Source of the DNA: Planctomycetales bacterium
GTDB lineage: Bacteria > Planctomycetota > Planctomycetia > Pirellulales > Pirellulaceae
DNA length: 40,931 nt
NCBI GenBank assembly: GCA_020426595.1
Contig: JAGQPS010000014.1
Coordinates: forward strand, 1-40,931
Reading direction: 5' to 3'
The translations under genes were made by a program, and so were the position numbers. Position 1 is the stretch's first letter. Every line of letters starts with the position of its first letter. The notes below the pieces were generated by a model. It made no database searches and was not told the origin of the DNA. It was given only the letters and a program-made list of their open reading frames with translations. Positions 35,324 to 40,751 of the stretch are shown piece by piece.

Positions 35324-36013
35324 CTAACTCTCGCTCGACTCCGTATCGGCGACGGCGAAGCGACAGCAATTGCCCCCCGCCAAAGTGCACTCGCCGAGCT
35401 CCAAGGGTTGCCCCACGAGCTCGCTGAGCAGCGTTCGCTCCATCACGCAAATCGAATCATCGCCGTTCGACAGATCAGGGTAGGGACAAGCCAGCACGCT
35501 GAGCACTGGCAAGGATCGTCCTACTTCCCCCGAAGATCCATCGTTCTCGTCCTCGCAAGGAGCCTCGTCGCTCCCTTGCACCGCGACCGGAATCTGTCGC
35601 TGGCCAAACAAGGCGGCGATCGAGGCCATGCGTTCCTCGGGCGAATCGCCATGGATCTGCCGCGAATACATGCGGGCCAAGCGCTTGGCGATCCCTTCGA
35701 TCAAACGATGGCGAATCGCCTCGTCATCGATCGCTCGCACTTCATCCCACAAGGCGGTCGCCAAATCGGCGAAGTTCTCACCCGCCTTGCGGCGTCCGGA
35801 AGGCGTGAGGCGGTACCCGTGAGTCGGGCGTCCGCGGCTCTGTCGACGGTCGGTTCGCACCACGAGTCCTTGCAGCATGAGCCGCTGGAGCCGCTGGCGC
35901 ACGGCGGTCGCCGTCACCTCGAGCTCGTCCGCCAACTCCGCCACGGTCGACTCGTTCGCCCGACGCAGTACGTCGAGAATCGTGATGTCCGACGAATGAA
36001 AGTTCTCAGTCAT
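35324..36013 (-). CDS. sufR: SufR-type Fe-S-sensing transcriptional regulator
   Basis: 229 residues from ATG 36013, where GGTGG is well spaced; ATG 36025 is in frame just before. An N-terminal winged helix (DITILDVLRRANESTVAELADEL, then VTATAVRQRLQRLMLQGLV) belongs to the DeoR/SufR kind. The C-terminal half carries clustered cysteines: Cys176, Cys189, Cys209 and a CC pair at 216-217, suited to bind a [4Fe-4S] cluster as in cyanobacterial SufR, which represses the suf operon while its cluster is intact. Cys153 lies in a less conserved acidic linker. It heads the suf cluster on the same strand, so it likely controls its own operon through the site at 36121-36172. The family call is good; the exact ligands are inferred. 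Confidence 0.9.
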   Translation of the reverse strand: MTENFHSSDITILDVLRRANESTVAELADELEVTATAVRQRLQRLMLQGLVVRTDRRQSRGRPTHGYRLTPSGRRKAGENFADLATALWDEVRAIDDEAIRHRLIEGIAKRLARMYSRQIHGDSPEERMASIAALFGQRQIPVAVQGSDEAPCEDENDGSSGEVGRSLPVLSVLACPYPDLSNGDDSICVMERTLLSELVGQPLELGECTLAGGNCCRFAVADTESSES

Positions 36014-36120
36014 CCGTTCCACCATCCCCCAATCTGAGCCAACCCACCCCAGCCAAACACACCACTTAAGGGGAAGTGCGAAGCAAGAGCAAACCAGCCG
36101 TTCTTCCGCTGCTCGAAGGC

Positions 36121-36172: not shown

Positions 36173-36422
36173 GCATTGAAAATTGAGTCAAGTCGAAGCG
36201 ATGGAAAACCCCTCGATCATGGGTCCGAGCCGCCTCCCGGTCTTGCCATGCGGCTCCCTCGAACCAATCAACGATCTCCTCCCCGCCCAGCCACGCCCGC
36301 TGGAGGCTCCGTTCTCACCGCGAGCCGCCTGGCGTCGCCGATTCACCGCCTTCGGTAGCGCGATTCGGCTAAGATCGTGCGCGGCCGCTTTGGTGTCCCA
36401 TGAGTTCAGAATGGAGCGAAGG

Positions 36423-38210
36423 ATGATGAGCCGACTGGTGAGTGCGATTGAGAAGCGAAGCCGAAGGCTCCAATCCGCCGGCGAAGAGGCGGACACTTTG
36501 AGCGCTGCTCGGATTCAGGTTCGAGCCCGAGCTGCTCGGCCATCACCCGCGTGGCTCGCGATCCTAACCATCTCGGTGACACTGCTGGCCATCTCCCACG
36601 GGGCTCAAGCCCAGCAAGTTGACTCCGCGGCGAATCCCGACGAACCCGCGACTCTCGTCGGTCGCATCGTCGACGGAGACAACGAGCCTTTGGCGGCGAG
36701 ACTCTATATCCAGTCGGCGAAAGGCTCGTTCCACACGCTCGACGTCGAGCGGTTCGCGAGCGATCACGCCGGAGCCGAGGCGGCCGTCTATCACGTTGAT
36801 CGCGGCGAGAGTGTCGAGATCCACACCGCTTTGTCGGCTCACCCGTTTCGCCTTGAGCTGCCGCCAGGCGAGTATCGAGTCACGGCGATGCGCGGCAAGG
36901 AGTTCCTACCCGACTCACGGACGATCACGCTGCGCGGCGGCGAGGAGCGTAGGATCGAGCTCCAACTGACGCGGTGGATTTCGATGGCCGAGCGCGGCTG
37001 GTTCAGCGGCGACACGCATGTCCACATGCCGATCGATCGATGCCGCGTGGCTCAGCGAGCCGAGGACCTCAACGTCGCGATACCGTTGACCTATTGGGTA
37101 ACCGACACTCAGCAAACGCCTCTGCGCCACAACCGGGCCGAACCTCCGCGGTCGCCCGAGTTGATTGAAGTCGGCCCGGACTCCGTGATCTGGCCCGTGA
37201 ACACCGAGTACGAAATCTTCTCGGTAGGCGGGCAGCAGCACACGCTGGGAGCCTTCTTCGCGATCAACCATCGCCATCCACTGGACCTCAGCGTCCCGCC
37301 GCTGGCACCGGCCGTCGCCGAGGCTCGCGCGCAGGGAGCTCTGTTCGATCTGGATAAGCACAACTGGCCCTGGTCAATGGTGCTGCCGCCGGTGATTGGC
37401 ATCGACCTGTATGAACTCTCGAACAATCACGTTTGGCAAACCGAGTTCCTGTTTGGCGATTGGTATCCGGAGTACATCGCCGACTGGATGGAGATCGAGC
37501 TCGACGACCAAGGCCACTACGGTGAACGAGGCTGGTTGGAGTTCGGATTTCGCAACTACTACGCGCTGCTCAATTGCGGACTGCGGATCAGCCCAACGGC
37601 GGGAACAGCGACGGGAGTCCATCCGGTGCCGATCGGCTTCGGCCGCGTCTACGTGCACTTGCCCGACGGCTTCGGTTACTCCGAGTGGATCGCGGGGCTG
37701 AAAGCTGGCCACAGTTTCGTGACGACTGGCCCGCTGCTCGACGTTCGGCTGGAGGGACAACTCCCCGGCGACGAATTGGCACTCGAGGCCCCACGGTCCT
37801 TGGAGCTCGCGGGCTGGATCGAGTCGCCTCATCCCATTCGGCTCGTGGAGCTGCTCGTCGACGGTGAAGTGGTCGATCAGTGGCGTCCTGATTCCACGAA
37901 ACAGGAGCTCGGCACCTATCGGGCCTCTCTCGCGCGCGACGTGACTCCCGAGCGTTCGGGTTGGATCGCGGTCCGTTGCTGGGAGGATCGCGCGGATGCT
38001 CGCCCTCGGTTCGCTCACACCGCTCCCTTCTGGATCTCGATCGCCGATCGGCCTCAATCGGCTCGGCGAGTCGAGGTCGAGTATTTGCTGCGACGCGTGA
38101 CCGACGAGTTGACCCGTAGTCGTGATCGGCTCGAGCCCGCCGCGATCGAGGAGTTCGAGCGGGCCGCCACGTTCTATCGCCAGAGGCTCGAATCGGCTCG
38201 TGACGAATAA
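36423..38210 (+). CDS. Secreted CehA/McbA-type PHP-fold metallohydrolase
   Basis: 595 residues from ATG 36423, where GGAG lies six bases upstream; a longer frame back to 36183 exists but starts without a ribosome site. A long basic n-region (~36 residues) precedes a signal peptide core (PAWLAILTISVTLLAISHGAQAQ). Residues ~75-185 form a carboxypeptidase-regulatory/beta-sandwich domain (LVGRIVDGDNEPLAARLYIQ). GWFSGDTHVHMP (His199, His201) is the metal-binding opening of PHP-fold hydrolases of the CehA/McbA type; further acidic and His residues appear in LDKHNWPW and LYELSNNHVW. GHSFVTTGPLLDVRLEG near 429-445 is the conserved C-terminal element. CehA and McbA hydrolyse carbamate esters, but many homologues have unknown substrates. 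Transcribed away from sufR. Confidence 0.85.
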   Translation: MMSRLVSAIEKRSRRLQSAGEEADTLSAARIQVRARAARPSPAWLAILTISVTLLAISHGAQAQQVDSAANPDEPATLVGRIVDGDNEPLAARLYIQSAKGSFHTLDVERFASDHAGAEAAVYHVDRGESVEIHTALSAHPFRLELPPGEYRVTAMRGKEFLPDSRTITLRGGEERRIELQLTRWISMAERGWFSGDTHVHMPIDRCRVAQRAEDLNVAIPLTYWVTDTQQTPLRHNRAEPPRSPELIEVGPDSVIWPVNTEYEIFSVGGQQHTLGAFFAINHRHPLDLSVPPLAPAVAEARAQGALFDLDKHNWPWSMVLPPVIGIDLYELSNNHVWQTEFLFGDWYPEYIADWMEIELDDQGHYGERGWLEFGFRNYYALLNCGLRISPTAGTATGVHPVPIGFGRVYVHLPDGFGYSEWIAGLKAGHSFVTTGPLLDVRLEGQLPGDELALEAPRSLELAGWIESPHPIRLVELLVDGEVVDQWRPDSTKQELGTYRASLARDVTPERSGWIAVRCWEDRADARPRFAHTAPFWISIADRPQSARRVEVEYLLRRVTDELTRSRDRLEPAAIEEFERAATFYRQRLESARDE

Positions 38211-38254
38211 GCGGGAGTGACGTTAACCCGGCTCGAGACGCGAGGGGATTGCGT

Positions 38255-38283
38255 CGTTTCCCGTTGGTTTCCGCCGGGAAACG
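38255..38283 (+). terminator. Stem-loop after the metallohydrolase gene
   Basis: Perfect 9-bp stem CGTTTCCCG (38255-38263) / CGGGAAACG (38275-38283), 11-base loop, 45 bases after the stop codon. Only TTGACTC follows, so it may be a weak or factor-assisted terminator, or a message-stabilising hairpin. Confidence 0.55.
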
Positions 38284-38334
38284 TTGACTCGAGACAAGGG
38301 GTCCAAGTAGAACCTTAACTTCCGGTTAGCCGTG

Positions 38335-38419
38335 AACGTGGGAGAGATCCTGGGGCCAGCCTCCCAAGAGGCGGTGCTGGGAACATGACATTTCCGAATC
38401 GCGGGTTCCCACGTTTTTT
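38335..38419 (+). ncRNA. Candidate structured leader RNA with poly-U end, upstream of the symporter
   Basis: AACGTGGGA (38335-38343) pairs perfectly with TCCCACGTT (38407-38415), and four more T follow (a T6 run at 38414-38419). The enclosed ~63 bases hold a second helix, GCCTC-CCAA-GAGGC (38359-38372). A closing helix with a U-run directly behind it is what a riboswitch or attenuator looks like. It lies ~90 bases before the preferred symporter start. I cannot match it to a known class: it has GGAGAGA like glycine aptamers, but not their GCCGAAGG or CUCUCAGG elements. Confidence 0.45.
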
Positions 38420-38510
38420 CGCTGCAACGACCGGTGCTTTTCGCTCCCCATTTCGAGTCTCAAGCGGGTCCCCTTTCGGTCCGCGTTCTTACTTGAGCCT
38501 GGCGCTGTTG

Positions 38511-40688
38511 ATGATGTACCACTCTGTTTCGCCTGCCTTGCGTCCTCGTGCTTGCTGGCTCGTCGCCGCCGGCCTTTGGATGTTCGTTCTGGGAACGGCC
38601 GCCGCGCCAAACATGGCCTCGGCCCAAGACGCTCCCACGACCGAAGCCGCCGCGCAAGAGACGCCGCCGACCGACACTCAACCATCCGACGCTCAACCAT
38701 CCGACGCTCAACCATCCGACGCTCAACCATCCGACGCTCAACCATCCGCCGGCGATGACAACGCGGCGGCGGCTGAGCCAAGTGAATCCGGTGACGCAGG
38801 CTCGGTCGACGAAGCAACGACGCCCGCGGAAGAGTCGAGCGGTGCCAGCGATGCCGAGGCCGCGACGGAAGACGAGGAAAAAAGCTGGTACGACCATGTC
38901 GACGCGACCTTCGGAGCGTATGTCACCAAGCCGATTGGCGACGCGCTGTCCTACAGCTTTGGGACCGAGTACCTGTTCGGTCGCAAGATTCCGTTTGTCG
39001 TGGTTTGGCTGTTTTGCGGAGCGTTGTTCCTGACGATCCGCATGAGCTTCGTCAACATTCGCTGCTTCTGGCATGCGATCCGATTGACCAAGGGCGACTA
39101 CGACGACAAGTCGGATCCCGGCGAGGTCTCTCACTTTCAGGCCTTGTCGTCCGCTCTCAGCGCGACGGTCGGCCTCGGAAACATCGCGGGTGTCGCCATT
39201 GCCGTCGGCACGGGTGGCCCTGGCGCCATCTTCTGGATGGTGCTGATCGGCCTTCTCGGCATGTCGAGCAAGTTCACCGAATGCACGCTGGGACAGATGT
39301 ATCGCCGAGTCAACGAGGACGGTACGGTCTCGGGCGGTGCGATGATCTATCTGCACAAAGGGCTCAAGGATATCGGGCTCGGTCCCTTGGGCGCTGTCTT
39401 GGCCATCATCTTTTCGGTGTTGTGTATCCTTGCCTCGTTTGGTGGCGGCAATGCATTTCAGGTCGGCCAGAGCCTCGACGCGCTGCGGGCCGATGTTAGC
39501 GTGATCGCGGCGGCCGAACAGGAAGAAGCAACCGCCTCGGATGCCGAGTCGGCTTCGGGCTCGGACAACGCCGTTGACTCGTCTTCCTCCGCTCAGGCCT
39601 CGGACGCGACCGCAAGCGAGGGTGAACAAGGAGCCACGCAGGAGAAGGAGAAGGGTTTTCTCGATAAGTATCCGGTCGTCTATGGCCTGACGATGGCCCT
39701 CTTCGCCGGACTCGTGATCATCGGAGGTATCAAGTCGATTGGACATGTCGCTTCGCTGATCGTGCCGTTCATGTGCATCGCGTATGTCGCCATGGCCTTG
39801 TACATCATCGGCACGAACCTCGATGAGGTGCCGGCGGCTTTTGGCGTGATCATTGGTAGCGCGTGGTCGATGCAAGCGGGCTTCGGCGGGTTGCTGGGTG
39901 TTCTCGTGCTTGGCATCAAGCGAGCCGTCTTCTCCAACGAAGCAGGAACCGGCTCGGCCGCCATCGCCCACTCGGCCGCCAAGACCGACGAGCCGGTGAG
40001 CGAAGGGATCGTGGCTTTGCTCGAGCCGTTCATCGATACGGTGCTAGTTTGCACCATGACCGGGTTGGTGATTGTGATCGCCGGAGGCGTTTGGACTCCC
40101 AACGAGGAGCTGCCGATGCTGAAGATTGGGGATCCGATCGTGGCTGAAGCAAGCGCGGAAACGGAGGCCGATTCGAGTCCGGTTGCCGACGCGGTTGCCG
40201 ACGCGGGGACCGATGCGGAGGCTAAGGAAGTGCCTAAGATCAACTACGAGTTCCTCGAAAAGCAGCCTTTGGGCACTTGGTCGAACCCGGTCTACCAAAA
40301 GTTCGCTGGCGAAGGAGCCGGTGCGTCGCTGACGCTGGCGGCGGTCTCGGGAAAGAAAGGGCTCCCTGCTTTCCGCTGGTTGCTCTACGCGTCGGTGGTG
40401 CTGTTTGCCTTCTCGACGATCATCTCCTGGTCGTATTACGGTGAACGCTGTTGGACCAACTTGTTCGGTCCCCAGTCGTCAATGGTTTACAAGGTGATTT
40501 TCCTGGGCTTCACCGTGCTGGGATCAATTGTGACCAAAGGCAACATCCTCGAGTTCTCGGACGCACTGATCCTCGGCATGTCATTCCCAAACATGGTGGG
40601 GCTCTACTTGCTCAGCGGCAAGGTACGGCGCGAGCTCGATAAGTACACTGGCAAGCTCAAGAGCGGCGAGATCGCTCCGAACAAGTAG
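38511..40688 (+). CDS. Na+:alanine/glycine symporter (AlsT/AGCS family) with signal peptide and acidic insertions
   Basis: 725 residues from ATG 38511. A frame back to 38385 exists, but it would start inside the leader RNA, and the signal-like segment ACWLVAAGLWMFVLGTAAAP with MASAQ begins after 38511. Residues ~50-125 are low-complexity Ala/Asp/Glu with a five-fold PSDAQ repeat. The AGCS core follows: GLGNIAGVAIAVGTGGPGAIFW (222-243) and FSNEAGTGSAAIAHSAAKTDEP (474-495), the Na+/substrate signatures, among about ten membrane helices. Two acidic inserts (~325-380, ~546-575) interrupt loops. Family members take up alanine or glycine with sodium across the inner membrane. A signal peptide plus extracytoplasmic acidic head is unusual for AGCS. 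Single gene with its own leader and terminator. Confidence 0.92.
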   Translation: MMYHSVSPALRPRACWLVAAGLWMFVLGTAAAPNMASAQDAPTTEAAAQETPPTDTQPSDAQPSDAQPSDAQPSDAQPSAGDDNAAAAEPSESGDAGSVDEATTPAEESSGASDAEAATEDEEKSWYDHVDATFGAYVTKPIGDALSYSFGTEYLFGRKIPFVVVWLFCGALFLTIRMSFVNIRCFWHAIRLTKGDYDDKSDPGEVSHFQALSSALSATVGLGNIAGVAIAVGTGGPGAIFWMVLIGLLGMSSKFTECTLGQMYRRVNEDGTVSGGAMIYLHKGLKDIGLGPLGAVLAIIFSVLCILASFGGGNAFQVGQSLDALRADVSVIAAAEQEEATASDAESASGSDNAVDSSSSAQASDATASEGEQGATQEKEKGFLDKYPVVYGLTMALFAGLVIIGGIKSIGHVASLIVPFMCIAYVAMALYIIGTNLDEVPAAFGVIIGSAWSMQAGFGGLLGVLVLGIKRAVFSNEAGTGSAAIAHSAAKTDEPVSEGIVALLEPFIDTVLVCTMTGLVIVIAGGVWTPNEELPMLKIGDPIVAEASAETEADSSPVADAVADAGTDAEAKEVPKINYEFLEKQPLGTWSNPVYQKFAGEGAGASLTLAAVSGKKGLPAFRWLLYASVVLFAFSTIISWSYYGERCWTNLFGPQSSMVYKVIFLGFTVLGSIVTKGNILEFSDALILGMSFPNMVGLYLLSGKVRRELDKYTGKLKSGEIAPNK
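38672..38750 (+). repeat. In-frame 15-base tandem repeat in the symporter gene
   Basis: The unit caaccatccgacgct repeats with period 15 (caaccatcc at 38679, 38694, 38709, 38724 and 38739), encoding five PSDAQ-like steps in the N-terminal acidic head. The near-identity of units at the DNA level points to recent slippage expansion. Confidence 0.9.
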
Positions 40689-40719: not shown

Positions 40720-40751
40720 CGAGCCGAGGTGCCGCAGGATGCCTCGGCTCG
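40720..40751 (+). terminator. Intrinsic terminator after the symporter
   Basis: Perfect 10-bp stem CGAGCCGAGG (40720-40729) / CCTCGGCTCG (40742-40751) with a 12-base loop, followed by TTCTGTTTCC. It lies 31 bases after the stop codon. Confidence 0.85.

Follow-up and report, generated by a model that had tools for sequence, protein, structure and literature searches.

A perfect 9-bp long-range helix that ends at a run of T closes an RNA fold upstream of an AgcS/AlsT-type symporter gene of an uncultured planctomycete (Pirellulaceae), and it is interpreted here, with moderate confidence, as a lineage-specific, leaky, intrinsic-terminator-like leader of that gene, i.e. a simple attenuator without sensing. 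The window, meaning the whole stretch of DNA analyzed, has 40,931 nt (contig JAGQPS010000014.1, assembly GCA_020426595.1), and the features relevant to the interpretation are summarized in Table 1. According to the preferred explanation, transcription of the symporter mRNA would begin near 38320, and the first 100 nt would form one rod-like fold, closed by the 9-bp helix that ends at the U-run. For RNA polymerase placed at the U-run, the fold would act as an imperfect intrinsic terminator: some transcripts would stop at about 38419, freeing an RNA of about 100 nt, while the remainder would continue into the symporter gene. The expression of the symporter would thus be reduced by a roughly constant amount, with no sensing step.

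Table 1. Features of the window around the symporter leader
Feature	Position	Strand	Basis or remark
Regulator gene, SufR-like	35324–36025	−	Best resemblance to SufR, below the cut-off of that model
CehA/McbA-type metallohydrolase gene	36183–38210	+	NF038032
Perfect 9-bp hairpin CGTTTCCCG/CGGGAAACG, no T-run	38255–38283	+	Read from sequence
Promoter-like element TTGACT-N18-TAGAAC	38284–38313	+	Recurs at related symporters
Outer helix, 5′ arm CCGGUU	38322–38327	+	MFE fold, single sequence only
Long-range helix, 5′ arm AACGUGGGA	38335–38343	+	Exact match; pair probabilities
Enclosed stem-loop, tip GCCTC-CCAA-GAGGC at 38359–38372	38348–38382	+	MFE fold
Long-range helix, 3′ arm UCCCACGUU	38407–38415	+	Exact match
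T6 run at the end of the terminator-like structure	38414–38419	+	Closed structure −39.1 kcal/mol
Outer helix, 3′ arm GACCGG	38429–38434	+	MFE fold
AgcS/AlsT-type Na+:amino-acid symporter gene	38511–40688 (probable start 38511 or 38514)	+	PF01235, TIGR00835

The arms of the long-range helix, AACGTGGGA and TCCCACGTT, are perfectly complementary over their 9 bp, and the computed pair probabilities ranged from 0.69 to 0.999, with seven of the nine pairs at about 0.96 or higher and the outer two at 0.92 and 0.69. The T6 run shares its first two bases with the 3′ end of the stem; 4 U are left after the complete stem, followed by CGC. The 63 nt that separate the two arms are mostly paired internally: they contain the hairpin with the CCAA loop and, in the MFE fold, a second enclosed helix formed by UCCUGG (38348–38353) and CUGGGA (38377–38382), the fold being thus larger than first described. 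In a longer RNA, the MFE fold also includes the outer closing helix. A previous sequence-only reading had described a perfect 9-bp helix with a T-run and an inner 5-bp helix with a CCAA loop, and had placed them in the leader of an AlsT-type symporter gene; both helices were confirmed, and the gene product matched PF01235 (E 8.9e-119) and, above the cut-off, TIGR00835 (agcS).

Concerning the comparison with chance, perfect 9-bp helices with arms within 100 nt of each other are common on the + strand of the window (26 versus 18.7 in shuffles), so the helix by itself is unremarkable. The helix joined to a TTTTT run is the sole such case on the + strand, with one more on the − strand, versus a mean of 0.04 in shuffled + strands. 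The closed structure at the T-run was equalled in 3/200 shuffles, and the MFE of the whole 121-nt element (−52.2 kcal/mol, z −2.67) in 4/200, i.e. the fold stands moderately, not overwhelmingly, above chance. Among the 11 T-runs of the window, it ranked second in stability (−39.1 versus −50.6 kcal/mol for the most stable one). As in an intrinsic terminator, a G+C-rich stem is followed directly by a U-run, but the loop is not short, and the structure was absent from a hairpin scan that was restricted to loops of 3–8 nt. Terminator-like hairpins showed no enrichment in the window (20 versus 16.4 expected, and 14 versus 19.1 in a second scan), so the lineage may depend little on intrinsic termination.

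The symporter reading frame is already open upstream of an ATG at 38385, which was considered as the start codon and rejected because the fold contains it and because no rise in third-position G+C is seen between 38385 and 38504. The start codon is probably 38511 or 38514. Judged by eye, the stretch that follows looks like a signal peptide, likewise in G001, the sole further genome of the genus. The structure is very probably part of the symporter 5′ leader. Two other traits of the gene were noted. As read from the sequence, a 15-bp unit stands about five times in tandem around 38678–38748 and codes for a QPSDA repeat within an acidic, low-complexity N-terminal region, and directly past the gene a 12-bp hairpin followed by TTCTGTTTCC (40720–40751) makes a plausible symporter terminator.

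The upstream regions of AgcS genes were examined in 50 of the 58 genomes with an AgcS match (33 + 17). The pattern TTGACW-N17/18-TAGAAS preceded 8 of 32 related symporters, the window counted among them and G001 left out because its contig ends; at the same 32 regions it had no occurrence on the reverse strand, none when reversed and none in 200 rounds of shuffling. A looser form was present in 12/32 regions, versus 0.005 per shuffle round, and a still looser one in 7/17 members of a second symporter group. Since the pattern was written after viewing the window and several relatives, these shuffle counts are post hoc, and some of the counted symporter genes may be paralogues. Genome-wide counts are the better control: the strict motif matched only twice in the genome of the window and 80 times in 60 genomes, fewer than a control pattern read backwards, and 7 of the 80 matches, that of the window included, were no more than 1 kb ahead of an AgcS match. 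The backward control being commoner overall, the motif does not represent a general promoter in these genomes. It is, as far as sequence comparison goes, a symporter-associated promoter-like motif, and it may be a promoter or contain an operator for the neighbouring SufR-like regulator. From its copy in the window, an RNA start near 38320 is predicted, which makes a start downstream of 38419 unlikely; the structure would then occupy the first 100 nt of a leader about 190 nt long. In several relatives (e.g. L006, L026, L032, L008 and L023) the motif is fuller, approximately TTGACW-N9-TTAT-N4-TAGAAG, often with GTAAA before it; the copy in the window is without the TTAT and GTAAA parts.

A counterpart of the SufR-like regulator gene of the window was found in 17/33 upstream regions, with the symporter on the other strand (the match in G013, one of the 17, spans only 34 residues). 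In about half of the relatives, the regulator is divergent from the symporter, and in the window the CehA/McbA-type gene intervenes. Contig C314 of G001 carries a CehA-like gene with 43% identity, which is not clearly the counterpart of that in the window.

Relatives of the leader were searched in several ways. Rfam gave no match at gathering score on either strand of the 40,931 bases, and at E ≤ 10 the segment 38200–38650 gave merely two chance-level matches (E 4.7 and 5.9). BLAST of 38318–38440 against 241 genomes of the family gave, beyond the element itself, only matches of 18–45 nt with E of at least 0.008. A covariance model, built from this one sequence, found nothing besides the element in its own genome, three weak matches (E 0.38–0.88) in 30 genomes, and, in 240 genomes, its own copy plus one match (E 0.033 per genome) located between rpoC- and proA-like frames, so named by eye. 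Two of these four weak matches (L159 and L186) lie in unrelated contexts. A repeated element in the own genome was also considered and rejected, as there were, besides the element, only chance matches of 18–19 nt. When 14 other candidates bearing the promoter-like motif were folded, none had the structure of the window; related symporters that retain the motif have short or different leaders, and one candidate (in G028) is by eye a tRNA-like stretch and no symporter leader. In G001, the contig stops 75 nt short of the symporter start codon, and the nearest comparison is thus missing. In G064, a strong hairpin of a different kind, CGTTGGGT...ACCCAACG with TATCTTTT after it, stands close to a T-rich stretch, some 290 to 257 nt ahead of symporter match L031, which suggests that leader hairpins arise independently. 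Among the entries listed by literature searches, there was nothing on planctomycete leaders.

Different explanations of the structure have to be considered. It is possible, if rather doubtful, that the fold is incidental and without regulatory effect, the leader being rich in G+C and pairing well beside a short T-run by coincidence. The moderate excess over chance, the failure to find the structure in any relative and the 26 comparable helices on the + strand agree with this, but the combination of helix and T-run is unique on that strand, and its position is where an attenuator would be. Less can be said for a terminator of the upstream metallohydrolase gene that would not concern the symporter: the structure is indeed intergenic, on the same strand and 125 nt past the stop codon, but the promoter-like motif intervenes between gene and structure, and another perfect 9-bp hairpin, abutting the −35 hexamer of the putative promoter, is closer to the stop codon. 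The latter is likely, as read from the sequence, the 3′-end hairpin of the metallohydrolase gene, so the leader structure is not needed as its terminator and this explanation is unlikely, even if the structure could catch read-through transcripts from the upstream gene. It is quite unlikely that 38320–38420 is the gene of a trans-acting small RNA, with its own promoter and terminator. Such a gene would account for the promoter motif, the stable fold of about 100 nt and the U-run end, but no Rfam match and no homologue in the family were found, and in the relatives the motif belongs to the symporter.

The sequence-only reading had put forward, as its first option, a ligand- or ion-sensing attenuator of a new class. 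In the RNA ending at 38419, the long helix dominates the best fold (−41.8 kcal/mol); holding its 3′ arm unpaired gives −34.8 kcal/mol (a cost of 7.0), and holding its 5′ arm unpaired gives −30.1 (a cost of 11.7). When the RNA ends at 38408, the MFE fold consists of two short helices, CCGUGA (38330–38335) with UCGCGG (38399–38404) and GGAGA (38341–38345) with UUUCC (38391–38395), with some bases in common with the long helix. This pair of helices, which would form while the 3′ arm has yet to emerge, is the only candidate antiterminator predicted by the folding model; a competing local hairpin, TGGGAAC (38378–38384) with GTTCCCA (38405–38411), was discarded, its pairing probability being 0.0. 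A riboswitch in which these helices compete with the long one would also suit a gene class that is a riboswitch target in other phyla, according to PMC5829553. Nevertheless, it is very improbable: at 38419 the alternative is weaker by 7 kcal/mol, so that there are no two exclusive folds of similar stability, and neither a conserved aptamer across species or genes, nor a homologue in the family, nor copies at other genes, nor a matching Rfam family was found. Much the same low probability is given to a lineage-specific kinetic switch, where the early helices would serve as antiterminator and be displaced by the terminator helix unless the transported ligand or ion, or a translating ribosome, held them; if true, this RNA would be an orphan sensor, known to date from a single species. 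The proposed sensor is not supported: the genome has one copy only, the alternative fold falls well short in stability, and the structure was not seen in related leaders. For a single species, the riboswitch reading keeps a very low probability, the gene class being all that speaks for it. The best fit is the fallback of the sequence-only reading, a simple terminator whose loop is large, and the absence of a glycine riboswitch that the same reading had claimed was borne out: RF00504 matched nowhere in the window at gathering score and nowhere in 38200–38650 at E ≤ 10, and none turned up in the own genome, while it was above the cut-off in 4 of 60 genomes searched. Attenuation by a leader peptide, in which ribosomes on an 18-codon frame over the 5′ arm would block the long helix, is extremely improbable. 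The frame is present, from GTG 38332 to TGA 38386–38388, and its stop overlaps the ATG at 38385, in the symporter frame. Against it, the start is a GTG located about 12 nt past the inferred transcription start, no ribosome-binding site is visible by eye, the frame holds no run of regulatory codons, and there are no relatives for comparison.

The leaky terminator is favoured because the fold together with the T-run exceeds chance, because the motif lies immediately upstream and is recurrent at related symporters and rare elsewhere, because a hairpin of its own already stands between the end of the metallohydrolase gene and the promoter-like motif, and because one fold dominates at the U-run. 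A single copy, with none found in relatives, is expected of a local terminator-like feature more than of a conserved aptamer. Some points go against a terminator: the mere 4 U past the full stem and the 63-nt "loop" are unlike a classic one, hairpins of that type are not enriched in the window, and another T-run structure is more stable. If it works as proposed, the structure would add another leaky leader terminator before a transporter gene, and its interest would be local. The promoter-like motif that recurs at AgcS genes of planctomycetes beside a SufR-like regulator is of wider use: it gives a definite point from which these leaders can be measured, and it offers a link between this regulator and amino-acid/Na+ uptake that can be tested.

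Compared to known systems, the structure resembles an intrinsic terminator or attenuator of a 5′ leader in its G+C-rich perfect stem followed by a U-run, placed between a promoter motif and a coding region, but it differs in having a structured "loop" of 63 nt rather than 3–8 nt, 4 U past the stem and no proven antiterminator. Leader-peptide attenuators are known from amino-acid operons; the likeness is a short frame that spans the 5′ arm of a stem resembling a terminator, whereas a run of regulatory codons, a visible ribosome-binding site and conservation are lacking here. The glycine riboswitch (RF00504) of AgcS/SAF symporter genes, described in PMC5829553, differs in that its model gave no match even at E 10 and that the own genome yielded no copy. 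The structure does share with it the gene class, the location in a 5′ leader and the presumed premature termination, which in Streptococcus pyogenes takes place at high glycine, at a glycine riboswitch located before the symporter gene (same source).
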